Assembly: GCA_900313705.1 (NCBI GenBank)
Contig: OMSJ01000018.1
Span: forward strand, 1 to 45,408
From: an uncultured Prevotellaceae bacterium
GTDB taxonomy: Bacteria > Bacteroidota > Bacteroidia > Bacteroidales > Bacteroidaceae
Length of the DNA: 45,408 nt
Direction: 5' to 3'
In this document: positions 1,040 through 38,396 of the stretch, one piece after another
Layout: each line of letters starts with the position of its first letter
Numbering within the stretch: position 1 is the first letter of the stretch
The notes under the pieces: generated by a model
The model's database searches: none
Told to the model about the DNA's origin: nothing
The model's input: only the letters and a program-made list of their open reading frames with translations
Program-made: the position numbers and the translations under genes

Positions 1040-2311
1040 ATGGAAAAGAATCAGGATTTCTTCACTTATACGCTGCCCCAGGGACTGCGCATTATCTGCG
1101 CTCCGGGGCAGACGGACACGGTCTATCTCGGCATCGCCATTGATGCCGGCACGCGCCACGAGCTGCCCAACGAGAGCGGAATGGCGCACTTCACAGAACA
1201 CATGTCGTTCAAGGGAACCCGTCGGCGCTCGACACGCCAGGTCATCTCCTGCATGGAGAGCGTGGGCGGAGACCTGAATGCCTTCACGGGCAAGGAGGAG
1301 ACGGTCTATTACTGCACTTGTCTCCAGCAGCATGTCTCACGCGCCATCGACCTCCTGCTCGACATTGCCCTGCAGAGCACCTATCCCCAGGAAGAGATGC
1401 AGCGCGAGGTGGAGGTGGTCATCGACGAGATTGAGAGCTATCAGGACCAGCCCTCGGAACTTATCTACGACGAGTTCGAGAGCCTGCTCTTCCCCGGTCA
1501 TCCCCTGGGGCGCAACATCCTTGGCGATGCCGACACGCTGCGCACGTTCCGCTTCGACGACATGCAGCGCTATGCCCAGCGCCTCTATCATCCCGAGAGG
1601 ATGGTGCTGTATGTGCTTGGCAACGTGAAGCCGGAGAAGGTGCTCCGCGAGGTAGAGAAAAAACTACGCGTACTTATGGCCGTAAGTACACGTACTTATG
1701 AAGATAAGTCCACGTACTTATCCCCGGAAGTCCACGTACTTGTTCCCGACACTCCCCATCCCGATTCATGCATCACCCGCAAGATGGACACGCACCAGGC
1801 GCATGTCGTCATCGGCTCACAGGCATTTGGCGGCAACGACCCGCGCCACTTGTACCTTTACTTCCTCAGCAACATGCTCGGCGGACCGGCCATGTCGAGC
1901 CGCCTGAACCTCGCTCTTCGTGAGCGCAACGGATTGGTCTATACTGTCGAGAGCAACCACACGACTTACACAGACACTGGTGTTTGGAGTGTTTATTATG
2001 GCTGCGATGCGAAGGACCGTGCCCGTTGCCGCCGACTTGTCCTTCGGGAACTGGACAAGCTCATGCAAAGCCCGATGTCTCAGCGTACGCTCGATGCTGC
2101 CCGCCGTCAGCTCAAAGGGCAGATAGGCATCAGCTACGACAACTTCGAGAACGTGGCCATCGGCATGGCGAAGCGCTATCTTCACTACGGCGAGACGCTC
2201 ACAAAGGAACAGCTCTTCGACCGCCTCGACGCCATCACGCCCGACGACCTCCTCGCCACGGCACAGGCCGTCTTCTCCCCCGACCGCCTGCTGACGCTGG
2301 AGTACGTGTAG
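1040..2311 (+). CDS. M16 family zinc metallopeptidase (insulinase/processing-peptidase-like)
   Basis: 423 residues, the usual length for a single-chain M16B peptidase. The inverted zinc motif HxxEH is at residues 50-54 (HFTEH: two His ligands and the catalytic Glu). The third ligand is Glu130 in VVIDEIE, 76 residues after the second His as in the family. A second M16 half follows (about 240-420). Family members degrade peptides; cell location is uncertain because no signal peptide is seen. Residues about 208-235 (RVLMAVSTRTYEDKSTYL and following) are encoded by a four-unit 22-bp DNA repeat, so this looks like an inserted segment at the junction of the two halves. The gene has its own promoter and converges on the glycosidase gene. 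Confidence 0.93.
   Translation: MEKNQDFFTYTLPQGLRIICAPGQTDTVYLGIAIDAGTRHELPNESGMAHFTEHMSFKGTRRRSTRQVISCMESVGGDLNAFTGKEETVYYCTCLQQHVSRAIDLLLDIALQSTYPQEEMQREVEVVIDEIESYQDQPSELIYDEFESLLFPGHPLGRNILGDADTLRTFRFDDMQRYAQRLYHPERMVLYVLGNVKPEKVLREVEKKLRVLMAVSTRTYEDKSTYLSPEVHVLVPDTPHPDSCITRKMDTHQAHVVIGSQAFGGNDPRHLYLYFLSNMLGGPAMSSRLNLALRERNGLVYTVESNHTTYTDTGVWSVYYGCDAKDRARCRRLVLRELDKLMQSPMSQRTLDAARRQLKGQIGISYDNFENVAIGMAKRYLHYGETLTKEQLFDRLDAITPDDLLATAQAVFSPDRLLTLEYV
1662..1743 (+). repeat. Four-unit 22-bp palindromic array, copy 1, inside the M16 peptidase gene
   Basis: Units start at 1662, 1684, 1706 and 1728, exactly 22 bp apart. Each is a 16-base variant of AAGTACACGTACTTAT followed by six variable bases. 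The core AAGTAC-NN-GTACTT is a dyad. The array is translated in frame without a stop. No GC-rich hairpin precedes this copy, unlike copies 2-5. Confidence 0.95.
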
Positions 2312-2328
2312 GGGGATTTATCCTCCTA
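2309..2328. terminator. Possible two-way terminator hairpin between convergent genes
   Basis: TAGGGGGAT and ATCCTCCTA pair over about nine positions with one G-T wobble and a tiny loop. It includes the M16 stop codon and fills most of the 32-bp gap to the glycosidase stop. There is no clear T run, so termination is inferred from position. Confidence 0.35.
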
Positions 2329-2343
2329 CGGGACTGAAATCGT

Positions 2344-4386
2344 CTATTCCTTTTCTCTGGGGAAGGCAGAGATGCGCAGGCGGGCGGCTCCCATAGGGAT
2401 GAGGGTGATGGGGGTCGTTGTCTCGGCACGCTTGGCATACTTGGTGGGGAGGAAGTCCGTCATGCCTGTCTGGTCGAACTTCCACGACGGTATCTGACGA
2501 CCGACAGCCGTGAACTCCAAGGGTACACCTTCCTGAGTGAAAGGCTGGTCGTTTTCGGGCCAGGGCTTATGCTTTACGCTGAATTTGATGGGCAGGTTCT
2601 GCTCATCGACCACCAGGCCGTAGTTCCAGTCGCTCTTCGCCCGCAGCACATAGCAAGGCCACAGCGAAGCATCGACGCCCGACTGCCAGTGCGAGTCGTC
2701 CTGCACGAACTCCGGGTCGCGGCTATCGTGCTGTTCGAACTCCTCGTCTATCTTGAGCGAGAGCGTGAGCGGACCGTAATCGACGCTGACGCTCGACTTG
2801 TTCTGCTGCCAAACGGTGGAGCGCACCGTCATGGGCAGACGCAGGCTGACGACATCGCCTTCCTGCCACTTGCGCTCGATGCGGACGTAGCGTCCGGCAG
2901 CATCAGCGATGGCTTGATTCTCACCGTTCACGCTGACCGATGCCCCTTCTGCCCAGGCAGGGATGCGCAGGTAGAGGGGGAAGGTGACATCCTGTTCGGG
3001 ATGGAGCGTGAGCTGGATGGCTTCGTCGAAAGGATAGTTGGTGGTCTCCTCCATGCGGAGCGATACGCCGTCGGCCACCAGAGCCGTCGTCTCGTTGGCA
3101 GCATAGAGCATCGTGGCCAGTCCGCCGTCGGCAGTTGCCATGACGAGGTGCTCCGAGAAGTAGGGCCATCCCATGCCGTGGTTGTGCTGGCAGCAGCGGG
3201 AGCTGAAGGGACTCATGCTGAGCATCCCGCGCAGGGCATTGTCGATGCTGGGCGCATGGTTCTTCTCGTCGCTGATGGCCATGTTGGCCGACGTGATGTA
3301 GCGCAGGGCACGCATGTCGGGCGTGAGTGCGGCAGGCAGGGAGTTGAAGGCCACGTTCTCGCAATGGTCGGCCCAGAAGATGTCGCCCGTGATGCCCATC
3401 AGAATCTCGTCGCTCGCCATCTGTTCCACAATGGCACAGGTCTCGGCCCCGTTGCGTGGGTCGTAGTATCCGTTGCGGGCGTTCTCGTCGGCTGCATACA
3501 TGCCGCCCGGCATCTGTCCGAAGCGGCTGCGCATCTCGTTATGGGCACGATAGGTAGCCTCGAGCATCTCCTTATCGCCCGTGTACATATAATATGTAGC
3601 GGGTTCGCGGAAGCCTTGGGCCACATTCACGCCGTGGAAGTTGGGCAGGTTGCCTTGCATCGTCCAGTCGGACGTGGCGCGGTGGAGCTTGTCGATGAGT
3701 GGCAGGATGGTCTTGTCGCCGTTGCGGTTGTAGAGCCAGATGACGCTCCAGAGGTTGTCTCCGCCGCGCTTCTCCTGCCAGAGACCTTTCAGGAACTTGC
3801 TGTCGTCGATGGTCAGTTCCCACTTGAAGTGGCGGTTCATGGCCGACAGCACACGGGCCTTGCCAGTGGCTTCGTAGTAGGTTTGCAGTGCCCAGAGCAT
3901 CGGCATCTTGGCCCAGAGGTCGGGGCTGGAGCCGTCGTAGCCGTCGGGACCGAGCCGTCCGTTGGAGGCTTGGTTGTTCAGCACCGCATTGATCCAAGTG
4001 TCCACCTCGCGCTTCATGGCTTCGTCGTCCAAGATGAAGGCCAGACTGCTGTAGCCTCTGAGCCAGTATGGAACCTCTTCCCATCCGTGGTCGCCTTGGT
4101 TGGAGAGCCATTGGTTGTTGTTCTTGTCGAGCCATGCGCTGACGGTGCCGAGCTGACCATTCAGTCCGTCGCGCTGCAGTTCGAGGTATTTGCGGAGCCA
4201 GCCTCGGGGCTGTACCTTCCCGACGGGCAACTTCAGGAGCGGCGCCTGCTGTAGGGGTTCGCGGAAGTTGGTGTAGTTCGCATTGGTCTGTTCGCGGTCG
4301 GGGCAGTCCACGATGCTGACGTTGGTCTGTGCCTGACAGCAAACAGTAAAGAGTACAAGTGCCAGGAGAAAAAGGGATTTGTTCAT
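2344..4386 (-). CDS. Exported GH127-type (DUF1680) glycoside hydrolase, putative beta-L-arabinofuranosidase
   Basis: 680 residues from the ATG at 4386-4384, chosen because it starts a clean signal peptide (MNKSLFLLALVLFTVCCQAQ); an upstream ATG at 4449 would overlap the preceding gene. The body is an (alpha/alpha)-barrel of the DUF1680/GH127 family, then a beta-sandwich. Two family motifs are visible: GAETCA (Glu and Cys) and SSRCCQHN (Cys-Cys). In the characterised GH127 enzyme HypBA1 the corresponding Glu and three Cys bind zinc, and one Cys is the nucleophile. The likely substrate is terminal beta-L-arabinofuranose on plant glycans, but related GH127/GH146 groups differ, so the sugar is inferred. 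Signal peptide cleavage predicts a periplasmic enzyme. It starts 7 bp after the upstream gene, in the same operon. Confidence 0.85.
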   Translation of the reverse strand: MNKSLFLLALVLFTVCCQAQTNVSIVDCPDREQTNANYTNFREPLQQAPLLKLPVGKVQPRGWLRKYLELQRDGLNGQLGTVSAWLDKNNNQWLSNQGDHGWEEVPYWLRGYSSLAFILDDEAMKREVDTWINAVLNNQASNGRLGPDGYDGSSPDLWAKMPMLWALQTYYEATGKARVLSAMNRHFKWELTIDDSKFLKGLWQEKRGGDNLWSVIWLYNRNGDKTILPLIDKLHRATSDWTMQGNLPNFHGVNVAQGFREPATYYMYTGDKEMLEATYRAHNEMRSRFGQMPGGMYAADENARNGYYDPRNGAETCAIVEQMASDEILMGITGDIFWADHCENVAFNSLPAALTPDMRALRYITSANMAISDEKNHAPSIDNALRGMLSMSPFSSRCCQHNHGMGWPYFSEHLVMATADGGLATMLYAANETTALVADGVSLRMEETTNYPFDEAIQLTLHPEQDVTFPLYLRIPAWAEGASVSVNGENQAIADAAGRYVRIERKWQEGDVVSLRLPMTVRSTVWQQNKSSVSVDYGPLTLSLKIDEEFEQHDSRDPEFVQDDSHWQSGVDASLWPCYVLRAKSDWNYGLVVDEQNLPIKFSVKHKPWPENDQPFTQEGVPLEFTAVGRQIPSWKFDQTGMTDFLPTKYAKRAETTTPITLIPMGAARLRISAFPREKE

Positions 4387-4393
4387 GTGTGTG

Positions 4394-5092: not shown

Positions 5093-5129
5093 AGGTATAA
5101 AATGTATCATAGGATGTCTTATTGCGAAG

Positions 5130-5137
5130 CAAAGTTA
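5130..5137 (-). promoter_or_regulatory. -7 element of the exported protein/GH127 operon
   Basis: TAACTTTG on the minus strand, about 38 bp upstream of the start at 5092. No convincing -33 TTG was found. Confidence 0.5.
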
Positions 5138-5460: not shown

Positions 5461-5503
5461 TTGGGGGAAATTGTGGGGAATTGTGGGGAATTGTGTATCT
5501 TTG
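5461..5503 (+). promoter_or_regulatory. mraZ promoter with probable MraZ operator (10-bp TGGGG direct repeats)
   Basis: TATCTTTG at 5496-5503 is the -7 element; the ATG follows at 5525. Immediately upstream, three 10-bp units run from 5461 to 5490: TTGGGGGAAA, TTGTGGGGAA, TTGTGGGGAA. MraZ is known to bind direct repeats with G-rich cores upstream of its own gene (TGGG boxes in E. coli, 10-bp-spaced boxes in Mycoplasma). Here the boxes would cover the -33 region, fitting autorepression. Confidence 0.65.
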
Positions 5504-5982: not shown

Positions 5983-6053
5983 CCCATAAGCCCCATAAGC
6001 CCTATGAGCCCCATAAGCCCTATGAGCCCCATAAGCCCCATGAGCCCCATATA
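5983..6053 (+). repeat. 9-bp tandem repeat between mraZ and rsmH
   Basis: About eight imperfect 9-bp units of the form CCCATAAGC / CCTATGAGC fill the gap between the mraZ stop (5977) and the rsmH start (6066). The same family recurs at 7081, 13997, 15260, 22924, 43101 and 43892. Confidence 0.95.
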
Positions 6054-7030: not shown

Positions 7031-7543
7031 ATGGCAGAGATAGAGTTGGATAACATCGAAGAGTTGCAGGAAGCGAAGGGGCTTGATGAGGCTAATGAGC
7101 CCAATGAGCCCAATGAGGCTAATGAGGCCCATGAGGCCAATGAGCCCCATAAGCCCAATGAGCCAGAGGAGTCTGTCAGCGACAAGGAGAAGCTGATGCG
7201 GTCGCTTGTCAGCGATGACGATGAAGTCGATGAACTGACCGTCGATAGCATACGCCAGATGCTGGACGCTGCTCCCCGCTGGTTCCTCAGCCAGTGGAAG
7301 CTGCTGCTGCTTTGCCTGGTCGGTATCTTCCTCTATATCACCAATGGCTATCAGGCACAGGTGGAGATGATGAAGGAGACAGAGCTTGAGGCAGAACTCA
7401 AGGACTGGCGCTATCGCAGCATCACGCGTGTCAGCGAACTCACGTTGCTCTGCCGTCAGAGCCAGCTCGAGCAGAAACTCCGTGAGCAAGGCGACAGTAC
7501 ACTGACGCCAAGCAAAGTGGCACCCTTTATCATTAAAGAATAA
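7031..7543 (+). CDS. FtsL-like division protein with repeat-encoded N-terminal extension
   Basis: 170 residues. One membrane segment at about 93-112 (LLLLCLVGIFLYITNG) is followed by a periplasmic helical stretch (about 115-160), the bitopic layout of FtsL, which in Bacteroidetes sits between rsmH and ftsI. Sequence similarity to FtsL is weak by nature, so position carries the call. The cytoplasmic N-terminus is unusually long; residues about 18-46 (EANEPNEPNEANEAHEANEP and onward) are encoded by the 9-bp repeat and are low-complexity and acidic. An internal Met that skips the repeat is not evident before the membrane segment except near residue 54 (LMRSLV). Confidence 0.8.
   Translation: MAEIELDNIEELQEAKGLDEANEPNEPNEANEAHEANEPHKPNEPEESVSDKEKLMRSLVSDDDEVDELTVDSIRQMLDAAPRWFLSQWKLLLLCLVGIFLYITNGYQAQVEMMKETELEAELKDWRYRSITRVSELTLLCRQSQLEQKLREQGDSTLTPSKVAPFIIKE
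7081..7170 (+). repeat. 9-bp tandem repeat translated in the ftsL-like gene
   Basis: About nine to ten units of GCCCAATGA / GGCTAATGA type. Because the unit is 9 bp, gain or loss of copies keeps the frame. It encodes three-residue units such as ANE, PNE and AHE. Confidence 0.93.
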
Positions 7544-9718: not shown

Positions 9719-11179
9719 ATGAAACTGAGACAACTCATACAGGACTGCAAGCCACAGCAGGTGGTGGGCAGCATCGACAGGGAAGTGACGGGCATCGAGA
9801 TAGACAGCCGCCGCATTTGCGAAGGTGCAGCTTTCGTGGCCATGCGTGGCACTCAGGTGGACGGCCATACCTTCATCGGCAAGGCCATTGAACTGGGTGC
9901 AACGGTCGTGGTGTGCGAGAAGTTGCCCGAAGAGATAGCGGAAGACGTCACTTACCTCGTCTATCCCGACACAGAAGACGTGGTTGGCCCATTGGCGACG
10001 CACTTCTTCGGCGACCCGACCCGACGTATGCACCTCATCGGCGTGACCGGCACCAATGGCAAGACGACTATTGCCACCGTACTCTATAACATCTTCCGCC
10101 AGCTCGGCTACAAGTGTGGCCTGTGCAGCACCGTGTGCAACTATATCGACGGTGAGCCTGTGCCCACTGAGGTGACGACGCCCGACCCCATCACTCTGAA
10201 CCGTTTGCTTGGGCGGATGGCAGACGAGGGCTGTGCCTATGCCTTCATGGAGGTAAGCAGCCATAGCGTCAGCCAGAAGCGCATCGGAGGTCTGGTCTTC
10301 AGCGGCGGCATCTTCACCAACCTGACGCGCGACCACTTAGACTATCACGGCACGTTCGAGAACTACCGCGATGCGAAGAAGGGGTTCTTCGATGGTCTGC
10401 CTGCCGATGCCTTTGCCATCATCAATGCCGACGACCGCAACGGCATGGTCATGGTGCAGAACAGCAAGGCGAAGGTAAAGACCTATTCGCTGCATTCAGC
10501 AGCCGACTTCAAGGCCCGCATCATGGAGGAGAGCTTCGAGGGCATGGACTTGGAGATAGACGGCAGAGAGGTCAGCGTACAGTTCGTAGGTCGTTTCAAC
10601 GTCAGCAACCTGCTGGCAGTCTATGGGGCGACGGTCATGCTGGGTGTCGAACCGCAGCAGGCCCTCGTGCTGCTCAGTGCACAGAAGCCCGTCAACGGTC
10701 GCTTCGAGGCCATCCGCTCGCGCGAAGGCGTGACGGCCATCGTCGATTACGCCCACACGCCTGATGCCCTGGTCAATGTCCTCACTACCATTAACGAGGT
10801 ATTGCAGGGTCGCGGCAAGTGCTGGACAGTTTGCGGCGCAGGCGGCAACCGCGACAAAGGGAAGCGTCCACTCATGGCTCAGGAGGCCGTCAAGCACAGC
10901 GACCGCGTCATTATCACGAGCGACAATCCGCGCAACGAAGACCCGCAGGAAATCATCAACGACATGCTGGCAGGCCTCGACGCAGGGCAGCGCCACGGAG
11001 TCCTCAGCATCGTGGACCGCAGGGAAGCCATCCGTACAGCCTGCACTCTGGCACAGCCGGGCGACGTCATCCTCGTAGCGGGCAAAGGACATGAGGATTA
11101 TCAGATCATCAAAGGGGTGAAGCACCACTTCGACGACCACGAAGTCATTCGCGAAGCCTTCGGGATACAAACCCCCTGA
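9719..11179 (+). CDS. murE: UDP-N-acetylmuramoyl-L-alanyl-D-glutamate--2,6-diaminopimelate ligase MurE
   Basis: 486 residues, family length. The substrate-binding N-domain is followed by the ATP loop GTNGKTT (about 113-119), the central motif EVSSHS near 179 with the downstream [11 protein letters not shown], and the C-terminal DNPRNEDP at 402-409. DNPR is the signature of enzymes that add meso-diaminopimelate, so the peptidoglycan should be of the mDAP type. It is a cytoplasmic ATP-dependent ligase forming the tripeptide precursor. The stop codon lies inside a GC hairpin that begins the 22-bp array element. Confidence 0.98.
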
Positions 11180-11278
11180 AACAGAGGGGCGGAAAAAACT
11201 ACGTGGACTTACGGCCATAAGTACACGTACTTATCGTCATAACTACACGTACTTATCGCCATAACTACACGTACTTAT
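11172..11278 (+). repeat. GC hairpin plus four-unit 22-bp palindromic array, copy 2 (murE-mraY gap)
   Basis: CCCCT (11173-11177) and AGGGG (11185-11189) form a hairpin. Then units start at 11197, 11219, 11241 and 11263, exactly 22 bp apart, ending at 11278. The first unit is the most divergent (GGACTT in place of GTACTT). It sits between co-directional essential genes, so it cannot be a strong terminator unless mraY has its own promoter. None of the TAnnTTTG type was seen in 11280-11331. Confidence 0.95.
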
Positions 11279-11331: not shown

Positions 11332-12597
11332 ATGCTATACTACTTGTTCAGATACTTAGGCGAATTCGGGGTTTCGGGTGCCAACCTGTGGCACTACATC
11401 TCCTTCCGTGCCGTACTCACGTTGGTGCTGAGCCTGCTCATCTCCATGTGGTTCGGCCAGTACTTCATCAAGTGGATGAAGCGGCATAACGTCAGCGAGG
11501 AGCAAAGGGACGCCAGCATCGACCCCTACGGCGTGGAGAAGAAGGGAGTGCCCACGATGGGCGGCATCATCATCATTGTGGCCACCCTCATCCCCTGCCT
11601 GCTGCTGGGGCGCTTGCGCAACATCTATATGCTCCTCATGCTCTTCACCACAGTATGGCTCGGCGCTTTAGGTTTTGCCGACGACTATATCAAGATGAAG
11701 GTCACGAAGGACGGCCTTCGCCCCATCTACAAGCTCATCGGACAGGCTGTGCTCGGTCTCGTCATCGGACTGACGCTCTGGCTGAGTCCCGATGCCGTGA
11801 TATGCGAGAACATCGAAGGTGAGCGGCAGGGCACAGAGCAAGTGGTGAAGCATCGTAGCGAAATGGTCAAGAGCACTATCACGACCATTCCCTTCGTCAA
11901 GAACAACAACCTGAACTATGCCAACATCTTCCGCTTCCTGGGCAAGCACCGTACGGCAGCAGGATGGATATTCTTCGTCTTCGTCACCACCTTCATCGTG
12001 ATGGCAGTCAGCAACGGTTCGAACCTCAACGATGGCATGGACGGTATGTGTGCCGGCAATGCTGCCATCATGTGCATTGCCCTGGGCATACTGGCCTACG
12101 TCAGCAGCCACATACACATGGCAGCCTACCTTAATATAATGTATATCCCAGGGTCGGAGGAACTCGTCATCTTCATCTGTGCCTTCGTGGGCGCACTCAT
12201 TGGCTTCCTCTGGTACAATGCCTATCCCGCACAGATCTTCATGGGCGACACAGGCAGCCTTGCCATCGGCGGCATCATTGGCGTGACGGCCATCATCATC
12301 CACAAGGAACTGCTGCTGCCACTGCTTTGCTTCGTCTTCCTCATGGAGAGCCTGAGCGTCCTCCTGCAGACCAACTATGCCAAGCGCGGCAACCGTCGCG
12401 GAGAGAAATGGCGCGTCATCAAGCGTGCCCCGCTCCACGACACCTTCCGCGTCGCACCAGGCCAGTTGCCCTCCAACTTCAAGGTGCTCATCAACTGGCC
12501 AAGGGGATGCTGGCTGGAGTCGAAGATAACCGTCCGCTTCTGGATAGTGACCATCATCATGGCGGCACTCGCCATCGTCACGTTGAAGATAAGATAA
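11332..12597 (+). CDS. mraY: Phospho-N-acetylmuramoyl-pentapeptide-transferase MraY
   Basis: 421 residues with about ten membrane helices. MraY motifs: the Mg-binding GALGFADDYIK near 116-126 (Asp-Asp), NGSNLNDGMDGM near 227-238, and the loop AQIFMGDTGSLAIGG near 302-316. It transfers phospho-MurNAc-pentapeptide to undecaprenyl phosphate to form lipid I at the inner membrane. The protein is longer than the E. coli one because of an inserted loop around 165-200 (ICENIEGERQGTEQVVKHRS), normal for Bacteroidetes. The gene precedes murD with a repeat-filled gap. Confidence 0.98.
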   Translation: MLYYLFRYLGEFGVSGANLWHYISFRAVLTLVLSLLISMWFGQYFIKWMKRHNVSEEQRDASIDPYGVEKKGVPTMGGIIIIVATLIPCLLLGRLRNIYMLLMLFTTVWLGALGFADDYIKMKVTKDGLRPIYKLIGQAVLGLVIGLTLWLSPDAVICENIEGERQGTEQVVKHRSEMVKSTITTIPFVKNNNLNYANIFRFLGKHRTAAGWIFFVFVTTFIVMAVSNGSNLNDGMDGMCAGNAAIMCIALGILAYVSSHIHMAAYLNIMYIPGSEELVIFICAFVGALIGFLWYNAYPAQIFMGDTGSLAIGGIIGVTAIIIHKELLLPLLCFVFLMESLSVLLQTNYAKRGNRRGEKWRVIKRAPLHDTFRVAPGQLPSNFKVLINWPRGCWLESKITVRFWIVTIIMAALAIVTLKIR

Positions 12598-12666: not shown

Positions 12667-14001
12667 ATGAATAGAATAGTAGTACTTGGAGCCGCCGAGA
12701 GCGGCGTTGGAGCAGCAGCGCTGGCAAAAGTGAAAGGCTTTGATGTCTTCGTCAGCGACATGGGCAAGATAAAGGAGAACTACAAGGAAGTGCTCCGCCA
12801 GTATGACGTGCCCTGGGAAGAAGGAAAGCATACGGAGGAACTCATCCTCAATGCCAACGAGGTGGTGAAGAGCCCCGGCATTCCCGAGGATGCACCCATG
12901 GTGCAGAAAGTCAGGGCAGCAGGCATACCCGTCATCAGCGAGATAGAGTTTGCCGGACGCTACACCGATGCCAAGATGATATGCATCACCGGTTCCAACG
13001 GAAAGACCACCACCACCAGCCTCATTTACCACATCTTCTGCAAGGCAGGCTACAACGTCGGACTGGCCGGCAACATCGGTCGCAGTCTCGCACTGCAGAT
13101 AGCCGAAGGCAAGACCTACGAGTACTACATCATCGAGCTCAGCAGCTTCCAGCTCGACAATATGTACGACTTCCGTGCCAACATTGCCATCCTGCTCAAC
13201 ATCACACCCGACCACCTGGACCGCTACGAAGGCTCCATGCAGAAATATACCGATGCCAAGATGCGTATCGTGCAGAACCAGACGGAGGAAGACGCGTTCA
13301 TCTATTGGAACGAAGACCCCATCATTGCCGCCGAACTAAAGAAGTACGGCATCAAGGCAAAGATGTGTCCCTTCAGCATCATCAAGAAAGAGGGCATGAT
13401 AGGCTACATCGCCGACGGACAGTACGTCATCGAGTACCCTACGCCCTTCAACATGGAACAGGAGAGCCTGAGCCTGCATGGCAAGCACAACATGTACAAC
13501 AGTCTGGCAGCAGGTATAGCGGCCCGCATCAGCGGCATAGGCGATGCATCGCTTCGCCAGAGCCTGAGTGACTTCGAGGGCGTGGAGCATCGCTTGCAGA
13601 AAGTGGCTCGCGTGGGAGGCGTGCAGTACATCAACGACTCCAAAGCCACTAACGTCGATGCCTGCTGGTATGCCCTCGAGAGCATGACCACCCCCACCAT
13701 CCTCATCATCGGAGGCAAGGACAAGGGTAACGACTACAACGCTATCAAGGAACTGGTGCAGAAGAAGTGTGCTGGCCTCGTCTATCTCGGAGCCGACAAC
13801 ACGAAGTTGCACGACTTCTTCGATGGAATGGGCATTCCTGTGGCCGACACTCACAACATGAAGGACTGTGTGGCAGCCTGCAACCGCATGGCAAAACCCG
13901 GCTATACCGTCCTGCTCAGCCCCTGCTGCGCCAGCTTCGACCTCTTCAAGAACATGGAAGACCGAGGCGAGCAATTCTGCGAACAAGTAAGAAACCTATA
14001 A
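12667..14001 (+). CDS. murD: UDP-N-acetylmuramoylalanine--D-glutamate ligase MurD
   Basis: 444 residues from ATG 12667 (MNRIVVLGAAESG), which matches the family start. The repeat-derived ATG at 12652 (MVNEEMNR) would add five residues and is the alternative. The ATP loop GSNGKTTTTS is near 108-117, ELSSFQLDN near 156-164, NITPDHLDRY near 178-187, and NDSKATNVDA near 321-330. The enzyme adds D-glutamate to UDP-MurNAc-L-Ala in the cytoplasm. The stop codon TAA is part of the first unit of the following 9-bp repeat. Confidence 0.97.
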   Translation: MNRIVVLGAAESGVGAAALAKVKGFDVFVSDMGKIKENYKEVLRQYDVPWEEGKHTEELILNANEVVKSPGIPEDAPMVQKVRAAGIPVISEIEFAGRYTDAKMICITGSNGKTTTTSLIYHIFCKAGYNVGLAGNIGRSLALQIAEGKTYEYYIIELSSFQLDNMYDFRANIAILLNITPDHLDRYEGSMQKYTDAKMRIVQNQTEEDAFIYWNEDPIIAAELKKYGIKAKMCPFSIIKKEGMIGYIADGQYVIEYPTPFNMEQESLSLHGKHNMYNSLAAGIAARISGIGDASLRQSLSDFEGVEHRLQKVARVGGVQYINDSKATNVDACWYALESMTTPTILIIGGKDKGNDYNAIKELVQKKCAGLVYLGADNTKLHDFFDGMGIPVADTHNMKDCVAACNRMAKPGYTVLLSPCCASFDLFKNMEDRGEQFCEQVRNL

Positions 14002-14063
14002 GCCCCATAAGCCCCATTAGCCCTATAAGTCCCATTAGCCCCATTAGCCCCATTAGCCCTATG
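13997..14063 (+). repeat. 9-bp tandem repeat spanning exactly the murD-ftsW junction
   Basis: Seven units of AGCCCCATT / AGCCCTATA. The murD stop (13999-14001) and the first possible ftsW ATG (14061) both belong to the repeat. Read through in frame it would encode Ser-Pro-Ile triplets. Confidence 0.95.
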
Positions 14064-21329: not shown

Positions 21330-21341
21330 CGGGATAACCCG
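21330..21341 (+). terminator. Small hairpin after ftsZ
   Basis: CGGG-ATAA-CCCG, 8 bp after the ftsZ stop codon, without a T run. Together with the GC hairpin at 21357-21380 it may end dcw transcription; this is weakly supported. Confidence 0.3.
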
Positions 21342-21356
21342 CAAAAGCATCTCTTT

Positions 21357-21468
21357 CCCCCTCTCTCTCCGGGGAGGGGGTAAAATAAGTACGCGTACTT
21401 AGACGGATAAGTACACGTACTTATTGTGACAAGTACACGTACTTATGGCCACAAGTACGCGTACTTTT
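21357..21468 (+). repeat. GC hairpin plus four-unit 22-bp palindromic array, copy 3 (ftsZ/recO)
   Basis: CCCCCTC (21357-21363) and GAGGGGG (21374-21380) form the hairpin. Units start at 21387, 21409, 21431 and 21453 at exact 22-bp spacing. It lies between the convergent 3' ends of ftsZ and recO. The current recO stop codon falls inside unit 2, so the array is translated on the minus strand as the new recO tail. Confidence 0.95.
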
Positions 21469-22236
21469 TTCTCTATAGGGCATTATCCCAGTACCTCCCG
21501 CAGTACCGAGAGCGAGCGCAGGTTGCGGAACTCCGGCACGTGCAGTTGGTAGTAGAGGGTCAGCAGGTCGAGTATGCGTGAGGGTCAGCAGGTCGAGTAT
21601 GCGTGAGCGTTGCTGACGCGTCAGGCGGAATTTGTGCATGTTGCGTAGGTTCATCTTAAGCAGTTTTGAGAGCGCAGCAGCTTCCTCATTTTTGATGTAG
21701 GCACCATGAGGCGGCTCCGTGCTGGTGGCTATGCTTTCACGCAGGTCGAAATAGGGCAGGCTTTCCCTGCCCTTTATGTTTGGCCAGAAGCCCAGATAAA
21801 AGGTCAGACGGGTGAGGAAAGCTATATGGAAGTTGGCAATGCCTTCGTTGGCAGCATCGAGCCATTGCAGACTATATAATATATAATGGTATAGGTCGGG
21901 GTTCTGTACCTCGCTGCGCAGTGCGTCGTGCAGGAACTCGGACAGGAAGAGTGCCACTGTCTCCTTTATCGGGTCATAAGGCAGGGAGGTGTAGCAATGG
22001 GACATGTGCAGTTCCTGAATCCTCTGCAGCGAGGCAGACGGGCGATAGTCAAACACCAATTCAATGATGTTGAGCGGCCGCAACAATGTGGCGTGTAGGC
22101 CTCCCTTGCGCTGCTGTCGGCGGTCGCGCACCAGAAACGACAAACTGCCGTGCGACAAGGTGAAAATATCTACAATGGCGCTGTCGTCATTGTAGCGGTT
22201 GTAGTGTAGCACGATGCCATTTGTTGTCTCAAGCAT
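21421..22236 (-). CDS. recO: DNA repair protein RecO with a frameshifted, replaced C-terminus
   Basis: 271 residues. The N-terminal OB-fold region (TNGIVLHYNRYNDDSAIVDIFT, GSLSFLVR) and the helical middle (KETVALFLSEFLHDALR) identify RecO, which helps load RecA at gaps. From about residue 213 onward the frame is altered by a perfect 25-bp tandem duplication at 21556-21605. With one copy removed the frame would read LLTLYYQLHVPEFRNLRSL and stop at 21485-21483, a normal RecO end; as it stands the protein runs on through copy 3 of the 22-bp array. The shifted tail (TLTHTRPADPLLPTARAG and onward) has no family resemblance. It could be a real mutation, a reversible slippage state or an assembly artefact. 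Confidence 0.9.
   Translation of the reverse strand: MLETTNGIVLHYNRYNDDSAIVDIFTLSHGSLSFLVRDRRQQRKGGLHATLLRPLNIIELVFDYRPSASLQRIQELHMSHCYTSLPYDPIKETVALFLSEFLHDALRSEVQNPDLYHYILYSLQWLDAANEGIANFHIAFLTRLTFYLGFWPNIKGRESLPYFDLRESIATSTEPPHGAYIKNEEAAALSKLLKMNLRNMHKFRLTRQQRSRILDLLTLTHTRPADPLLPTARAGVPQPALALGTAGGTGIMPYREKSTRTCGHKYVYLSQ
21556..21605. repeat. Perfect 25-bp tandem duplication inside recO
   Basis: Bases 21556-21580 and 21581-21605 are identical. Twenty-five is not a multiple of three, so the second copy shifts the recO frame. Confidence 0.97.
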
Positions 22237-22923: not shown

Positions 22924-23085
22924 TGGACCAATAAGGCCCATGAGTCTCTAATGGGACCCATAAGCCCTATATGCCCTATGAGCCCCATGAGCCCCATGAG
23001 CCCAATGGGCCCTATGAGCCCTATAAGCCCTATGAGCCCAATAGGGCCCATGAGCCCAATAAGCCCCATGAGCCCCATAGCATGC
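22924..23085. repeat. 9-bp tandem repeat between rpsT and gyrB
   Basis: About eighteen imperfect units of the CCCATAAGC / CCCCATGAG family, the longest non-coding array here. It sits in the convergent gap between the rpsT terminator and the gyrB stop codon. No gene is seen; the open frames across it are just Ser-Pro-Met and Gly-Leu-Met triplets. Confidence 0.93.
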
Positions 23086-23098: not shown

Positions 23099-25084
<1,986 letters not shown>

Positions 25085-25139: not shown

Positions 25140-25198
25140 GCAAATGCGGAAGAAAGTTACGAATCAACCCTATCCTGTTGAAAAACGAGGCACGGCAT

Positions 25199-25264
25199 GT
25201 TGGCCAATTAGGTACAGCTAGTTGCTCAGTTAGGTACAGCTAGTTGCCCAATTAGGTGCGGTGT
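25199..25264. repeat. Three 22-bp tandem units upstream of gyrB
   Basis: Units start at 25199, 25221 and 25243; the first two end in TTAGGTACAGCTA and the third diverges at its end. The sequence differs from the AAGTACACGTACTTAT arrays although the 22-bp period is the same. The remainder of the gap (25265-25470) shows no gene or clear site. Confidence 0.85.
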
Positions 25265-25472
25265 GTTTGCAAAGTAGCTTATTCCTCTGTCCCTTTTAGC
25301 TTTCGCGACCCTGGAAAGATTCCCTGTATCCTTTGATAATTAGCTTCTTCTTTGAAGCGAAATATCTTGACACTTTGTGCTCTCAATGAGGCTTAATGGA
25401 GAGTTCGGAGAAAGGTAGAAGCGTGTGTGCTCTGCCTGCTTTTACCTGGTCCCCTGCTTGCGCTTCAGACAT

Positions 25473-28354: not shown

Positions 28355-28574
28355 GTACTAATTTTGCAAAGCAAAATGTGATAAAGCCACACCCCATTTC
28401 TGATAAACAGATTTGAAGGTTTGCAGCTATTCACATCCAAGCACAACGAGAACGAGGTCTCATCCTCAGGAAACGACCTCTATGACTGACAACGATTAAC
28501 TAAAGAAGTAAAGGGAAATGATTACCCGCAAAGCTACAAAAGGGAGATATGATAATACCCCAAAGCACCCCTTG

Positions 28575-28682
28575 CTCCCATCTCTGGGAGGGGGTCAGAT
28601 AAGTACACGGACTTATGGGGATAAGTACACGTACTTACGAGGATAAGTACACGTACTTATGGCGATAAGTACACGTACTTCT
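28575..28682 (+). repeat. GC hairpin plus four-unit 22-bp palindromic array, copy 4
   Basis: CTCCCA-TCTC-TGGGAG at 28575-28590 is the hairpin. Units start at 28601, 28623, 28645 and 28667 at exact 22-bp spacing. The first unit has GGACTTAT, as in copies 2 and 5, so the element has a fixed polarity. It lies in the 800-bp gap before the fimbrial operon. Confidence 0.95.
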
Positions 28683-28773
28683 TTCCACAGGCTATTTTTG
28701 CAGATTATCAGAGTACACAAGAAAAAAGATAACATTATACAAGACTAACAAAGAAACAGGAAATCAAGTAGCG

Positions 28774-33681: not shown

Positions 33682-35325
33682 ATGATTAGAACTAAGAATA
33701 TCACCCTCATCGCTGTTTTGGGACTGGCCTTTGCGGCCTGTTCCCAGGACAGCCTTGTGGCAGACCAAGCGCAGGAGCAGTTGACTGCTGTTGGTTCCGA
33801 GACCATCGGCTTCGGCAGCATGGCCAAGGCCCGTACGCGTGTCTCCCATGAGGAGTCGGCAGCCCTGCTTGGCGGCAAGTTCGTGGTGTATGGCACCAAG
33901 ACGAAGGACAGCGATGTCAGCCCGGTGTTCGACAACTACGTCGTCGAGTATGCTCCCAACACGGCAGGCACCGTAAAGACCAATTCTTCAGATTGGGACT
34001 ACGAGGGCAAGACGTCGAAGAAGGGCGCCACACAGTCCGTCAAGTACTGGGACTACAGTGCCCAGCACTTCGACTTCGTGGCAGCTGCAGGCCTTGCTGC
34101 AGACGAGCTGATTCCGAGCACGAACGGTGGTATGCGCATCAACGTGGCCGATGCAGAGAAGATGACAAACATCTACATTGCCGACCGCATTACTGCCACT
34201 CCCGAGGCCAAGAACAAGACAGCTACGACACCTGCCACCGTGGGCTACAAGAGCACCGTACAGTTCCAGTTCCGCCGCATGGGAGCCCAGATGCGTATCG
34301 GTTTCTATGAGACCGTTCCCGGCTATGCCATCAAGGACCTCGTGTTCTACTACGTCGGGGCACCTTCCGGCAGCAAGACAGTCGGTGTGGGAGCCGCTTT
34401 CCCCAAGTCGGGCAAGTACACCGTAACCTACGACGATGCCACGAATGCAGCCCTTGCCACGTTCGTAGGCAGTGATAACACCCTGGCCTTCAGCAACACC
34501 TTCGGCGACCTGGACTACAAGCCCGTCTATACGCAGGAAGGCGTCACGGACAAGCCTTATCTTGCAGCCGACGGCACAGCCAGCGCAACTGCAGTCAATG
34601 CTTTCCTCGGCACTTCGTCCTCCACAGCCAGCTATGGTAAAGGCAAATATACCATCGACGGCGCAACAGGTGTCACATCGGACTACAAGCCCATCCTCCC
34701 CAGCGAGCAGAATACGCTGAAGATGCAGCTTCGTGTCGATTACACCCTGATTGCCCTCGACGGTTCCCGCGACTCCATCCATGTTCGCGATGCCTACGTC
34801 AGTGTCCCGGCCCATTACCTCCAGTGGAAGCCCAACTATTCGTACACCTACCTCTTCAAGATAGCCGACAACAGTAACGGCTATACCGGTGAAGGCGGTG
34901 GCGGTACGGTAACGACAGGCCCCGGTCGCGACCCCGACCCCGACAACCACGGCGGCGACAACGACCCCGTTGTTGACCCAGCTACGGGCGAAGTCATTCC
35001 TCCGTACATTCCCGACCCGAACTGGCCGGAGATAGAGGACCCCGACAATCCAGGCAACACGATTCCCGACCCCAATGCACCGCTCGTCCCCAATCCTCTC
35101 TATCCCGATGGACCTGAGGGTGACCAGCACGACCCGTCGAATCCCGTTCCCACACCAGTAATCCCCGATCCCGACAATCCAGGTGGAACCATTCCCGACC
35201 CGACGAATCCCGCCAGTCTCTTCCCCATTACGTTCGACGCTATCGTGGTCGAGGCAGAGGAAGGATCGCAGACGGTCTTCACCGTTGTCAATGGAACAGA
35301 CAACAGTTCAGAAGAGGAACATTAA
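33682..35325 (+). CDS. Fimbrillin family lipoprotein 2, with long Pro/Asp/Asn linker and short end
   Basis: 547 residues. Lipobox AFAAC (Cys20). Core motifs: QSVKYWDYSAQHFDFVA, QMRIGFYETVPGYAIKDL, QWKPNYSYTYLFKIADNSNG. Then about 110 residues of low-complexity linker with repeats such as IPDPDNPGGTIPDP, followed by LFPITFDAIVVEAEEG and an abrupt end (NGTDNSSEEEH). The C-terminal domain of paralogues 1, 3, 4 and 5 is missing, so this is either a shaft or anchor subunit with a different role or a truncated copy. The first MITE-like element begins 9 bp after its stop codon. Confidence 0.85.
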   Translation: MIRTKNITLIAVLGLAFAACSQDSLVADQAQEQLTAVGSETIGFGSMAKARTRVSHEESAALLGGKFVVYGTKTKDSDVSPVFDNYVVEYAPNTAGTVKTNSSDWDYEGKTSKKGATQSVKYWDYSAQHFDFVAAAGLAADELIPSTNGGMRINVADAEKMTNIYIADRITATPEAKNKTATTPATVGYKSTVQFQFRRMGAQMRIGFYETVPGYAIKDLVFYYVGAPSGSKTVGVGAAFPKSGKYTVTYDDATNAALATFVGSDNTLAFSNTFGDLDYKPVYTQEGVTDKPYLAADGTASATAVNAFLGTSSSTASYGKGKYTIDGATGVTSDYKPILPSEQNTLKMQLRVDYTLIALDGSRDSIHVRDAYVSVPAHYLQWKPNYSYTYLFKIADNSNGYTGEGGGGTVTTGPGRDPDPDNHGGDNDPVVDPATGEVIPPYIPDPNWPEIEDPDNPGNTIPDPNAPLVPNPLYPDGPEGDQHDPSNPVPTPVIPDPDNPGGTIPDPTNPASLFPITFDAIVVEAEEGSQTVFTVVNGTDNSSEEEH

Positions 35326-35333
35326 TTATATAC

Positions 35334-35525
35334 TCAAGTTTCGCATGTTAAGAAGATAAAAGAAGACAAAGGAAGATATGCCGCTCTTAAGCGGCGAAGA
35401 TAGAGGACGATACCACAGGTAAATTGAAAATTCAAAGTTAGAGCGCAAGACTAATGTCATTTATCTACTTTTATCTACTTCTAACTCCTTCTATCTACAT
35501 GGCAAGCGGAGCTTGCGAAAGTTGA
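35334..35525. mobile_element. MITE-like element, copy A
   Basis: About 192 bp. The ends are imperfect inverted repeats (AAGTTTCGCATGTT left; the right end reads AACTTTCGCAAGC inverted). Inside are the hairpin GCCGCT-CTTA-AGCGGC-like and opposed GAAGATAAAAGAAG and CTTTTATCTACTTCT stretches. Copy B at 38440 is nearly identical. No ORF is present. It fills the gap before fimbrillin gene 3. Confidence 0.8.
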
Positions 35526-35567
35526 ATTACAAGTTATAGCGAAAAGATAAACAACCTTAATAAAAAA

Positions 35568-38162
35568 ATGAATATGAAAAAGTCTTATTACATTCTCATT
35601 GCTGCAGTTGGTGCCATCTTCACCGGCTGTACCAGTGACGACATCGTTGTCAATGACGAGATGGCTCCGGTAGTAGAAGCAGAGACTCCTATCGTCTTTG
35701 GTTCCGTAAAGAAGGGTATGACCCGTGCCGACGCTACAGGCGCAGAGGCAGCAGATCTCCTGGGCAACAAGTTCGTGGTTTCCGGTTACAAGGGTCCTAA
35801 AACAGAATGGCAGACAACCCCCCCAGATCCAACTCCTTCAACCATTGTCTTCGACAACTATCTTGTCGAGTACTCAGAGAACAGCGCTAACACCACACAG
35901 TCGAACTCTTCCAACTGGGAGTATGTCGGTGTTGACCGCATCAAACATGCCATCGACAAAGGCATCACCTCTCAGCAGATTAAGTACTGGGACTACAGCA
36001 AGGCTCAGTATGACTTCATCGCATGGTCCACAGGTAGCGCTACAGCTGTCTATGAGGGTACACCCGCAGCGGGCCAGGTGCTGGTATCTGCCATCACCCC
36101 TGCGACAGCAACAGGAACAGGAACAGGTAAAGTGGCTTACACCTTCACCGGTACAGCTGCCGACCTGAGCAAATGCTACATCGCCGACCTCGTAACGGTC
36201 AAGAAGTCTCAGTATGGCGACGACCCCGTTACCTTCAAGTTCCGTCAGCTCGGCACAAAGGTACGTATCGCCATCTACGAGACCGTTCCTGGCTACTCTG
36301 TAAAGAACGTAGAGTTCTACAGCGCTGCTGCCAGCAATGATGCTTCTGCAGCTGCTGCCAAGCTGTTCACCACCACAGCCAACGATATCTACACCGAAGG
36401 TACCTACACTGTGACCTTCCCCACTGTGGACGCTGACGGTAACGCTGACAACAACCAGGCTCACGTCACCTTCGCTCCCAAGGCTGGTGCTGCCCAGTCA
36501 ACCATCATCGATTGGGGCGGCCTGAACTACACCATCGCTGAGGAAGGCGAGAAGCTCGGCACAGAGTTCCTGGGTCGCACCTCTGCCACAGCTTCCTATG
36601 CAGGTAACGCTGACAACAACTACTATGTGGTTTACCTCCCCAACGAGGTCGGCACCAACCTCAACCTCCGTGTTAACTACACCCTCGAGTCCATCGACGG
36701 CTCTGGCGAGGAAATTACCGTGAAGGGCGCTACCGCTCAGGTTCCCGGCATCTACACCACTTGGAAACCCGGCTTCGCCTACACCTACATCTTCAAGATC
36801 AGCGACAAGACCAACGGTTACACCGGTGTCTATGACCCCACCAAGCCCGACGACACTACCGTCAACAGCGACCCCGCCGGTCTCTATCCCATCACCTTCG
36901 ACGCTCTCGTAGAGAATGCAGAGGATAACGATGCCACTCAGGAGACCATCACCCTCGTTTCCACTCCCAGCATCACCACCTACCAGAAGGGTTCCAACGT
37001 TGTTAACAACGACGAATACCTCGCAGCTACCGGCCCCATCTTCGTTACTGTAAACGACGGTGGAGGTTATGAGGAAGTTACTGGCCTCAGTGCAGGTGAT
37101 GACGTTTCTTCCTACTACACATTCAATACAACCACTGGAAAATATACAAAATGTGGAGTTAGTGACAAAGCAGTGGATGGCACCAAATACTATAAGTTGG
37201 AACCCGTTCTGGCAAATGGTGCCCTGCAGACTCTGACCGGCAAGGCTGCCCTCTACACCATCCCCGCTGGCAAGACAGAGGCTGAGGTCATCGACGCTCT
37301 CCAGATGCGCGACGACGACGCTGCCACCGGCACCATCAAGGGCCGCAGTGGTCTGGTACTCACCGAGGCTGCCTTCACGCTCACCAACAGCGTAGAATAC
37401 GGTGTTGACGGCAACGCTATCCCTGTTGCTACCGACCAGGCAGCAAAGTTCACCGCTTCAGCCGGCACCTATGCCTTCGTTTATATAAAGAAGGCTCCCA
37501 CCACAGCTAACGACGTGGTTAAGTATCAGGCTCTCAAATGGGCAAACTTCGAAACCGGTCAGACCAAGTATCGCTACGACTACAAGGCTCCCACCCACAG
37601 CTACTACAATGACAATGGAACCACGGATGATACTACCGATGATATCGAATACTTCGACGCTCAGAAGGGCGTGAAGTACTTCGCTAAGGATGGTGAAGGC
37701 AAATACACCATGCAGGCTCCCTTCGTCGGTCAGGGCGTGAGCAACCTCTACCTCGATGCAGCCGGCAACACCATCGCCAGCGGCTATGCCGTGACAGGTA
37801 CCGACTACTACTACACCATCGACAAGGGCATGACCTACAAGAAGGCAACCAACATTGCTTATGCTGACTTTGCAGGTGCTACCGACCTCTATACCTTCGA
37901 CAGCGGAAATTCGACCTACAGTCCTAAGGCCGACACGACTCCCGTCAATGGTACAGCTTACTACCGGAAGACCACCTCTGGCGGCGTGGACACCTACACC
38001 TACTGTGTCATCCTGCCTCAGCAGACCTCAAGCTGGTACGAGCTCGACACCACCAAGTACGTAAAGGCTACCGAGACTGAAGAAGTTGATGGCCAGACCT
38101 ACTTCGACAAGTACACCAAGAACGACGGTGTTTACTACACCAAGGTAATCAAGGTACAGTAA
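35568..38162 (+). CDS. Fimbrillin family lipoprotein 3 (largest paralogue)
   Basis: 864 residues from ATG 35568; ATG 35574 (MKKSYYIL) is an equal alternative. Lipobox FTGC (Cys21). Core motifs: QQIKYWDYSKAQYDFIA, KVRIAIYETVPGYSVKNVEF, TWKPGFAYTYIFKISDKTNG, then GLYPITFDALVENAED and SITTYQKGSNV shared with paralogue 4. It is some 230 residues longer than paralogue 4 owing to extra Tyr-rich C-terminal segments (about 500-860), ending YYTKVIKVQ. The extra domain suggests a tip-proximal or adhesive subunit; this is inference. Codons mostly end in C or G, as in highly expressed genes here. Confidence 0.87.
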   Translation: MNMKKSYYILIAAVGAIFTGCTSDDIVVNDEMAPVVEAETPIVFGSVKKGMTRADATGAEAADLLGNKFVVSGYKGPKTEWQTTPPDPTPSTIVFDNYLVEYSENSANTTQSNSSNWEYVGVDRIKHAIDKGITSQQIKYWDYSKAQYDFIAWSTGSATAVYEGTPAAGQVLVSAITPATATGTGTGKVAYTFTGTAADLSKCYIADLVTVKKSQYGDDPVTFKFRQLGTKVRIAIYETVPGYSVKNVEFYSAAASNDASAAAAKLFTTTANDIYTEGTYTVTFPTVDADGNADNNQAHVTFAPKAGAAQSTIIDWGGLNYTIAEEGEKLGTEFLGRTSATASYAGNADNNYYVVYLPNEVGTNLNLRVNYTLESIDGSGEEITVKGATAQVPGIYTTWKPGFAYTYIFKISDKTNGYTGVYDPTKPDDTTVNSDPAGLYPITFDALVENAEDNDATQETITLVSTPSITTYQKGSNVVNNDEYLAATGPIFVTVNDGGGYEEVTGLSAGDDVSSYYTFNTTTGKYTKCGVSDKAVDGTKYYKLEPVLANGALQTLTGKAALYTIPAGKTEAEVIDALQMRDDDAATGTIKGRSGLVLTEAAFTLTNSVEYGVDGNAIPVATDQAAKFTASAGTYAFVYIKKAPTTANDVVKYQALKWANFETGQTKYRYDYKAPTHSYYNDNGTTDDTTDDIEYFDAQKGVKYFAKDGEGKYTMQAPFVGQGVSNLYLDAAGNTIASGYAVTGTDYYYTIDKGMTYKKATNIAYADFAGATDLYTFDSGNSTYSPKADTTPVNGTAYYRKTTSGGVDTYTYCVILPQQTSSWYELDTTKYVKATETEEVDGQTYFDKYTKNDGVYYTKVIKVQ

Positions 38163-38218
38163 CAAACATCCAACTCTGGAGCGTTCTTCGGCAAGCGAAA
38201 CGTCTCTACTAATAATCA

Positions 38219-38247
38219 GCTCATCAAGGTTCGACTCCTTGATGAGC
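38219..38247 (+). other. T-loop-capped hairpin after fimbrillin gene 3
   Basis: GCTCATCAAGG pairs perfectly with CCTTGATGAGC (11 bp) around the 7-nt loop TTCGACT, the same loop as the T arm of the tRNA-Glu in this window. An A-rich stretch follows, not a T run, so it is not a standard terminator. Confidence 0.75.
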
Positions 38248-38291
38248 AACAAAAAAAGAAATATGATAATGAGCAAAAACACCCAATGGAA

Positions 38292-38396
38292 AAAAGTACG
38301 TGTACTTATCGCCATAAGTACGTGTACTTGTCCGACTAAGTACGTGTACTTATCCGCATAAGTCCGTGTACTTATCCGACCCCTTCCCAGCGGGGG
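38292..38396 (-). repeat. Four-unit 22-bp palindromic array plus GC hairpin, copy 5 (reverse orientation)
   Basis: In plus-strand order the units start at 38292, 38314, 38336 and 38358, exactly 22 bp apart, reading AAGTACGTGTACTT. The divergent unit and the GC-rich hairpin (CCCC 38380-38383, GGGG 38392-38395) are on the right, so the whole element is inverted relative to copies 1-4. Confidence 0.93.

Follow-up and report, generated by a model that had tools for sequence, protein, structure and literature searches.

Why should short palindromic units stand at one exact period, again and again, along a bacterial chromosome? This question is raised by a stretch of 45,408 nucleotides from an uncultured Prevotellaceae bacterium (contig OMSJ01000018.1 of assembly GCA_900313705.1; hereafter the window), in which a first-pass annotation had described five copies of an array of four dyads at a period of 22 bp, and had read them as probable sites of a DNA-binding protein. 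Below we report the analysis of these arrays in the window, in the genome to which it belongs and in related genomes, all from a group of rumen bacteria. Overall, the results show that the arrays have a fixed geometry and constrained arms, that several of their places are common to species with different dyads, and that a miniature inverted-repeat transposable element (MITE) carries copies of them. The observation of the annotation is partly confirmed and its interpretation partly supported.

Geometry of the arrays in the window and in its genome

The five copies are found where they had been placed. The pattern AAGTACNNGTACTT, with at most two mismatches, has 25 matches in the window, and 20 of them are the five times four units of these copies, while 100 dinucleotide shuffles of the window give 1.04 matches on average and 4 at most. 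The five arrays are genuine and lie well beyond what chance would produce. Their units always stand 22 bp apart. Copy 5 is inverted, and copies 2, 4 and 5 carry the variant GGACTT in their first unit, both points being as first described. The remaining five matches are isolated with two mismatches each, and four of them (32297, 34042, 35982 and 44318) lie in a repeated coding motif. The annotation had taken scattered single units, if as common as arrays, to speak against its element; no intact single unit is seen in the 45-kb window. Two details are corrected here, namely that the dyad has 14 bases (AAGTAC-NN-GTACTT, usually framed by AT...AT) and not 16, and that the five copies are not the full set, a sixth and degenerate 22-bp array (array 6 in Table 1) having been overlooked.

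A search with a profile of the units in this and related genomes had also been proposed. The genome of the window (G000; 2.83 Mb in 185 contigs, 80.5% complete) has 459 matches to a two-unit pattern at 22 bp with up to three mismatches, and the reversed control has none. From a profile built on 22 arrays and from 117 fetched stretches a catalogue of 122 arrays was obtained, which covers 411 of the 459 two-unit pairs; about a tenth of the arrays of this genome lie outside it. As scoring took in 150 of the 815 first-look candidates, two-unit arrays, of which the catalogue has none, could be under-listed. With spacings of 20-24 bp and up to three mismatches per unit allowed in chaining, 415 of the 416 spacings are 22 bp and one is 23 bp. 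The period is thus borne out, and the random spacings named beforehand as adverse to the element do not occur within the range allowed. The number of units, held to be fixed at four, ranges from three to eight with four as the mode: 76 arrays have four units, 30 have five, nine have six, five have three, and one each has seven and eight. The consensus unit, AAGTAC-AC-GTACTT, is framed by AT...AT, the inner spacer having four bases, and the AC centre is present in 455 of 538 units. The spacers do not vary as freely as had been supposed, since 167 distinct 8-mers are found among 415, with the consensus AT-GGCG-AT, and many MITE copies have by eye a common series ATGGGGAT / AGTCGGAT / ATGGCGAC. 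According to a home-made gene caller, 120 of the 122 arrays are not wholly within a called gene.

A MITE-like element that carries arrays

One array has been captured by a MITE-like element, called type A here, and spread in the species of the window. By flank similarity, 62 of the 122 arrays have the left flank of type A (class A), 8 have its right flank alone (B) and 52 have neither (C) and so lack the inverted ends; the classes follow a similarity threshold, under which L170 seems misplaced in A and L106 retains one end although placed in C. In type A, inverted ends ATGATAATCCGCAAAA/TTTTGCGGATTATCAT enclose the array, with a GC-rich hairpin to its left and CTTTCCATAGGGTA to its right. Terminal inverted repeats, as expected of a MITE, are present in type A copies, ATGATAATCCGCAAAA...TTTTGCGGATTATCAT being read in many flanks, and A+T-rich sequence flanks many copies. 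The 14-base inverted end has 20 exact and 36 one-mismatch matches in the genome, and by eye 55 of these 56 accompany arrays. In the window, the GC-rich hairpin reported beside copies 2-5 belongs to this larger element at copies 3, 4 and 5, while the GC-rich sequence flanking copy 2 is a different one and the corresponding position at copy 1 is coding. The element around array 4 is 85% complementary to 38264-38421, which surrounds array 5. In addition, the type A copies L098 and L125 have a nearly identical left flank over at least 50 bp, so that a larger segment was probably copied.

As for the means of movement, no autonomous element with type A ends is seen among the 56 end matches of this assembly, about 80% complete, in which one match (C30:5237), outside the catalogue, was not followed. 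A viral origin is rejected, as viral contigs have no exact two-unit match. The annotation had offered a REP-like element moved by a TnpA-REP transposase as its alternative, and this is unsupported. The Pfam family Y1_Tnp is matched in six array-bearing genomes, and gives no match at E ≤ 0.001 in eight relatives that bear arrays, all incomplete assemblies (G005, G008, G012, G015, G016, G020, G024 and G036). The genome of the window has two matches (L036 and L037), at distances to an array of about 1.6 and 2.4 kb, a nearness which may be chance. Mobilisation by Y1/RAYT proteins was set aside, a reading which fits poorly with what these incomplete assemblies show.

Constraint on arms and spacing

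In a set of 49 copies, no change of spacing is found against 44 gaps in the flanks, a comparison that is biased because the arrays were found by their arms. A fairer test is given by 23 elements found by a 30-base left-end pattern alone, all of which hold an array (19 with four units and four with five). In these copies 40 of 1152 arm bases differ from the consensus (3.5%), compared with 53 of 552 (9.6%) in the left, hairpin flank and 49 of 521 (9.4%; 18 readable copies, five dropped) in the right flank, and none of 73 spacings is altered, compared with five gaps in 1073 flank bases. This supports a constraint on both arms and geometry. The annotation had supposed that either selection or a copying mechanism preserves the geometry, and both apply in part, copying with the MITE-like left flank for about half of the arrays and constraint in the recent copies.

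The substitutions also mirror each other in the two halves of the unit. Among the 538 units of the genome, whose counts share descent and hence are not independent, A2G is found 24 and 14 times in the two halves, G3C 28 and 36 times, and A5C 87 and 49 times, while half-site positions 1, 4 and 6 are nearly fixed. Units with two AAGTCC halves are fewer than expected, with 2 against 7.6 in the genome of the window and 1 against 10.7 in the relative G457 (RGIG6885), where units were collected by an AAGTAC-based search. The mirrored spectrum, the scarcity of paired AAGTCC halves and the constraint on arms together fit one protein dimer per unit.

Arrays with other dyads in related genomes

Searched for by the AAGTAC dyad, the arrays are found in 3 of 36 congeners (with 1, 5 and 2 pairs), in none of 24 other genomes of the order, and in none of 394 in a further search. 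The first view drawn from this, that the arrays are confined to nearly one species, was misleading and is overturned by period scans. It is the AAGTAC dyad that looks nearly private; congeners carry 22-bp arrays with other dyads, which is the main result of the analysis and comes from outside the window. In 400 kb from nine congeners and two order-mates, scanned at periods 12-40, there are 14 arrays at 22, three at 21 and one at 15. Another 351 kb, from 11 congeners and nine order-mates, has one at 22 (G010) and one at 20 (G021), with none in the order-mates. These two samples were picked blind to arrays, several stretches being on contigs with the M16 peptidase gene or its relatives. In 385 kb from five close species, partly chosen round murE and the M16 gene, 31 arrays are found at 22 and one at 21. 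In 383 kb of the genome of the window, chosen round arrays, the scan returns 121 catalogue arrays and two others at 22, while periods 14-32 otherwise have 0-2 each; in 335 kb of G457, also chosen round arrays and scanned at a looser threshold, 37 are at 22 and all other periods total 20, with at most three each. The densities in these last two sets and in part of the 385 kb are not those of random samples. Thresholds were 75% for the first scans of relatives, the M16 loci and the loci of the own genome, 73% for the 385 kb, and 70% for the mapping of places and G457; low-complexity repeats were left out except in the M16-locus scan. The genomes are drafts, the named ones being metagenome-assembled, in which short-read assembly may collapse or cut long arrays.

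Some further arrays were observed in these searches. The genome G013 has two period-21 arrays of ATTTTCA...TGAAAAT dyads (L229:15729-15834 and L230:5793-5889), and a 7.2-Mb Bacteroidetes assembly from a lake, another habitat, has a lone AAGTAC 22-bp array (L046:2123-2246).

Places common to several species

The places of the arrays are in part common to the close species. The gap between murE and mraY holds a 22-bp array in all eight close species (the own genome and G005, G008, G012, G024, G027, G035 and G036), the MraY proteins of the seven relatives being at least 91% identical, and in none of 22 other readable congeners, with one further locus incomplete and six congeners yielding no locus. 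The M16 gene has an array in seven of the nine closest genomes (own, G008, G012, G020, G024, G027 and G036), and none is detected in that of G005 or G035. A scan of 29 M16 loci gave five with a period-22 array, located in the gene in G008, G012 and G020 and beside it in G015 and G016. The units in the G020 orthologue are AAGAGC-AC-GCTCTT, and those in G012 are CCACACCATTATTGCCAACAAG. Upstream of gyrB, arrays are present in four of six species (degenerate in the own genome, and in G027, G035 and G036) and undetected in G012 and G024. In the ftsA-ftsQ gap, G027 and G036 carry an array, unlike the other species mapped. The type A array 3 of the window, in the gap after ftsZ, has no counterpart in six relatives mapped. 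Some places therefore look inherited, while that MITE copy came later.

Arrays at one place may differ in other ways. Both flanks of five arrays of the own genome were located in G457: two of these places carry a like array, that of L120 carries a 22-bp array built on an unrelated dyad, and the other two are empty. Differences of whole units are also seen, L119 having five units against three in G457, and L030 five against four in L039 of G013.

Letters within and between genomes

In some genomes, and not in others, arrays at different places agree in their letters. Between the M16 and murE arrays the unit agreement is 0.86 in the own genome, 0.91 in G008 and 0.95 in G027, where all locus pairs range from 0.77 to 0.95; the locus pairs of G036 range from 0.50 to 0.68, and over 13 pairs of different loci within one genome the mean is 0.66. 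At the same locus across species the mean is 0.52 (55 pairs), compared with 0.50 for unrelated pairs (103) and 0.46 for shuffled units, although G012 and G024, a sister pair, agree with each other at both loci (0.91). A single dyad per genome was considered and fails in G012, G024, G035, G036 and G457. In G457, AAGTAC, AAGTCC and AAGAAC halves are found in 22 arrays, in which all 70 spacings are 22 bp. That genome also has a longer 22-bp array of about ten units of TTGGCGATAAGAACGTGCCTAG (L347:11890-12133).

A core is common to part of the relatives. The centre CACG/CGTG is present in 31 of 56 arrays from 12 congeners, compared with a mean of 7.8 and a largest value of 15 in 500 shuffles, and on either side of it arm pairing reaches 42-97%, depending on the position, where the null gives 28-31%, the best CACG match of each array being taken. 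Since G008 contributes 15 of the 56 arrays, and another five are from G020 loci retrieved through patterns or through a protein, the sample is uneven and species count for more than arrays. By eye, spacers and CACG core look common between species while the arms differ.

Comparison with known systems

Arrays of sites about 21-22 bp apart are well known from iterons and from the multi-box operators of ArgR or TyrR, where protein subunits cooperate at one or a few loci per replicon; unlike them, the present arrays occupy more than 100 loci. DNA uptake sequences are single or paired short words, and differ in this from a phased dyad array. CRISPR arrays alternate long repeats with unique spacers about as long; with a 14-bp dyad and recurring 8-bp spacers, the present arrays are not of this type, for which cas genes were not searched.

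The type A element resembles BrickBuilt of Porphyromonas gingivalis, described in the cited part of its report as a Bacteroidales MITE with inverted ends, in which leader and tail enclose tandem repeats about two helical turns long; its copies are intergenic, and some are without leader, tail or both (PMC4596501). Its 19 copies have 1 to 22.8 repeats of 23 nt, with at most 6% indels inside the element, and the same part gives no BLASTn match outside P. gingivalis (PMC4596501). The present repeat has another sequence and another length (22 bp), is built of dyads, has one of 416 spacings off and a mode of four units, and lies at places common to species with other dyads. REP and BIME elements are likewise dispersed, mostly extragenic palindromes, some families being species-specific, often in more than 100 copies and some within genes, as far as the cited passages go (PMC3733652, PMC2817692, PMC3116915). 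In the passages concerned, REP families carry a GTAG or CGTC tag (PMC3733652); neither is in the unit or spacer consensus here, where also the period is fixed and eight array-bearing relatives have no Y1_Tnp match. Noc sites are 16 bp long and scattered round the chromosome, and ParB and Noc illustrate a way in which the specificity of binding switches (PMC8429893, PMC4331003, PMC7383237). Scattered sequence-specific binding is a likeness that for the arrays is predicted, and the passages cited on Noc do not mention arrays of four. The uptake dialects of Neisseriaceae resemble the arrays as a genome-wide motif that differs by species, in the portion of the source used (PMC3630211). No described 22-bp phased dyad arrays were found in the open-access literature, subscription papers and preprints being mostly outside this scope. 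We rate the arrays as a whole as categorically new, and the type A element alone as of a known kind.

Explanations for the arrays

Given these observations, we put at about an even chance the explanation that the arrays are platforms for several dimers of a putative DNA-binding protein with drifting half-site specificity, a MITE having also spread one array. Each array would offer about four sites, with one dimer per 22-bp unit. Neighbouring dimers would touch in a fixed register; this would hold all units to a period of exactly 22 bp and make arrays of about four units the preferred form, and the unbroken period fits such contact. Somewhat more than 100 of these platforms, mostly intergenic, would lie along the chromosome, and such a distribution makes a role at chromosome scale (nucleoid folding, segregation or similar) likelier than control of single genes. 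The arm specificity of the protein may drift between species with the arrays following, while the CACG core and, by eye, a TTGGCAA-like spacer would be retained in part of the clade. The binding site proposed by the annotation is thus favoured by the mirror-symmetric substitutions, by the mostly unpaired arms of G457 and by the common places; the protein, its dimer, its cooperative binding and its chromosomal role are what we infer. We regard as possible, at somewhat less than even chance, the wider notion that the arrays are the equivalent in bacteria of rapidly evolving satellite or centromere DNA, in which places and geometry are inherited and letters turn over within genomes under the drive of the putative protein.

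Several results weigh against the platforms. No binding protein was found for the arrays. Units with two variant halves, when all variants are counted, are not depleted in the own genome (28 against 29.8 expected, P 0.38). The agreement between M16 and murE arrays is lower in G012 (0.68), G036 (0.59) and G024 (0.50), the own gyrB units differ from the rest (0.45), as do murE and gyrB in G035 (0.36), and 25 of the 56 arrays of relatives lack the CACG/CGTG centre. G457 has several dyad families, and arrays are gained and lost, as seen from the two of five orthologous places in G457 that have none. One protein with one specificity leaves the genomes with mixed dyads unexplained, so that more than one protein or a copying of arrays is needed. 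Also, homogeneity within a genome could stem from copying instead of selection.

Such copying is the basis of a serious rival to the platforms, in which recombination or repair rewrites arrays from others of the same genome by conversion and the process itself sets the geometry. It would account for loci agreeing within the own genome, G008 and G027 better than the same locus does across species, for orthologous arrays that differ by whole units, and for the unrelated dyad at the G457 counterpart of L120. Whole-array copying would not yield common spacers and CACG core with different arms, as read by eye, and the arms are constrained in recent copies while several genomes have different dyads at their different loci; on balance we take it to be improbable. 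A purely mobile repeat (a MITE, or an element like BrickBuilt, with a minisatellite inside it), without host function and with its geometry inherited from a master copy, is unlikely too, although slightly less so. The type A flanks at about half of the arrays, the inverted ends that nearly always accompany arrays and the common spacer series speak for it, and BrickBuilt, as the cited part describes it, is a precedent (PMC4596501). On the other side, 52 arrays share no flank with the element at the threshold used (L106 keeping an end), array places are common to species with differing dyads, changes in the arms are about one third as frequent as in the flanks of the element, and no autonomous partner is seen in the incomplete assembly.

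Two other explanations have far less probability than these. Self-recognition tags like DNA uptake sequences, whose species dialects might drift by biased recombination, are very improbable, as known uptake sequences are short words and not 22-bp arrays, even though dialects with a partly common core and about one array per 10-25 kb resemble those of Neisseriaceae in the portion of the source used (PMC3630211). Least probable, and only marginally credible, are hairpins of RNA or single-stranded DNA serving as terminators, stabilisers of mRNA 3' ends or cruciforms. The units are indeed dyads and most arrays are intergenic, nearer by the same gene caller to neighbouring stops (median 77 bp) than to starts (209 bp). 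However, the arms match within no more than 316 of the 538 units of the own genome and 7 of the 92 of G457, of which 6 and 1 are compensated variants; the M16 frame is free of stops in the eight orthologues examined, six of them array-bearing (one of these partial); and orientation to tandem genes has no clear bias (27 with, 34 against). Non-matching arms and arrays within an open gene argue against hairpins and terminators, readings which fit poorly.

Features of the window

The coordinates of the arrays, the elements around them and the adjacent genes are collected in Table 1. At gathering scores, Rfam finds nothing but a tRNA in the window.

Table 1. Arrays, type A elements and neighbouring genes in the window
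Feature	Position	Strand	Remarks
Array 1	1662..1741	+	four dyads, period 22; in frame within M16 peptidase gene; without MITE flanks
Array 2	11197..11276	+	four dyads; murE-mraY gap; without MITE flanks
Array 3	21387..21466	+	four dyads; type A MITE-borne; after ftsZ
Left inverted end of array 3 element	21333-21346		one mismatch; right end not recognisable
Array 6	25182..25277	.	degenerate, 22-bp, TTAGGTACAGCTAGTTGC...; about 107 bp upstream of gyrB; not in the first-pass annotation
Array 4	28601..28680	+	four dyads; type A MITE-borne
Type A element around array 4	28550..28710	+	both ends: left 28550-28579 (3 mismatches), right 28696-28709 (1 mismatch)
Array 5	38294..38373	-	four dyads; type A MITE-borne; inverted
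Type A element around array 5	38264..38421	-	inverted repeat with array 4 element
M16 peptidase gene	1040..2311	+	423 aa; PF00675, PF05193; array 1 inside in frame
Mur ligase gene	9719..11179	+	left neighbour of array 2; Mur ligase domains; name murE inferred from position beside mraY
mraY	11332..12597	+	right neighbour of array 2; glycosyl transferase family 4; name inferred
gyrB	23099..25075	-	downstream of array 6; DNA gyrase B domains

Some other features were observed beside these. A minus-strand open reading frame of 271 aa (21421-22236) ends within array 3, and its homologues in relatives are about 650 bp long. Tandem repeats of 9 bp, of the type CCCATAAGC / GGGCTTATG, are present at 5984-6051, 7066-7169, 13989-14063, 22951-23079 and 43045-44067, some in long runs, and an 8-bp AAAAGGTG-like tandem repeat lies at the right edge (45096-45171). 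A second dispersed motif, CCGGACARCAATA, occurs near arrays elsewhere in the genome, exact in 20 of 358 loci, some of which overlap (L017, L020, L021, L029, L090, L105, L110, L129, L140, L141 and others); its longer form has no match in the window.

Meaning of the arrays

If the platform explanation is true, the chromosomes of these bacteria would carry platforms throughout that keep their place and geometry from one close species to the next, but not their letters. The putative protein should then be findable by pull-down with an array probe, with the dyads of other species as ready controls of specificity. This would give a bacterial system in which the joint change of a DNA-binding protein and more than 100 of its sites can be studied, and if the arrays are passive, they would still be a case of dispersed repeats that change in concert at fixed loci of bacteria.

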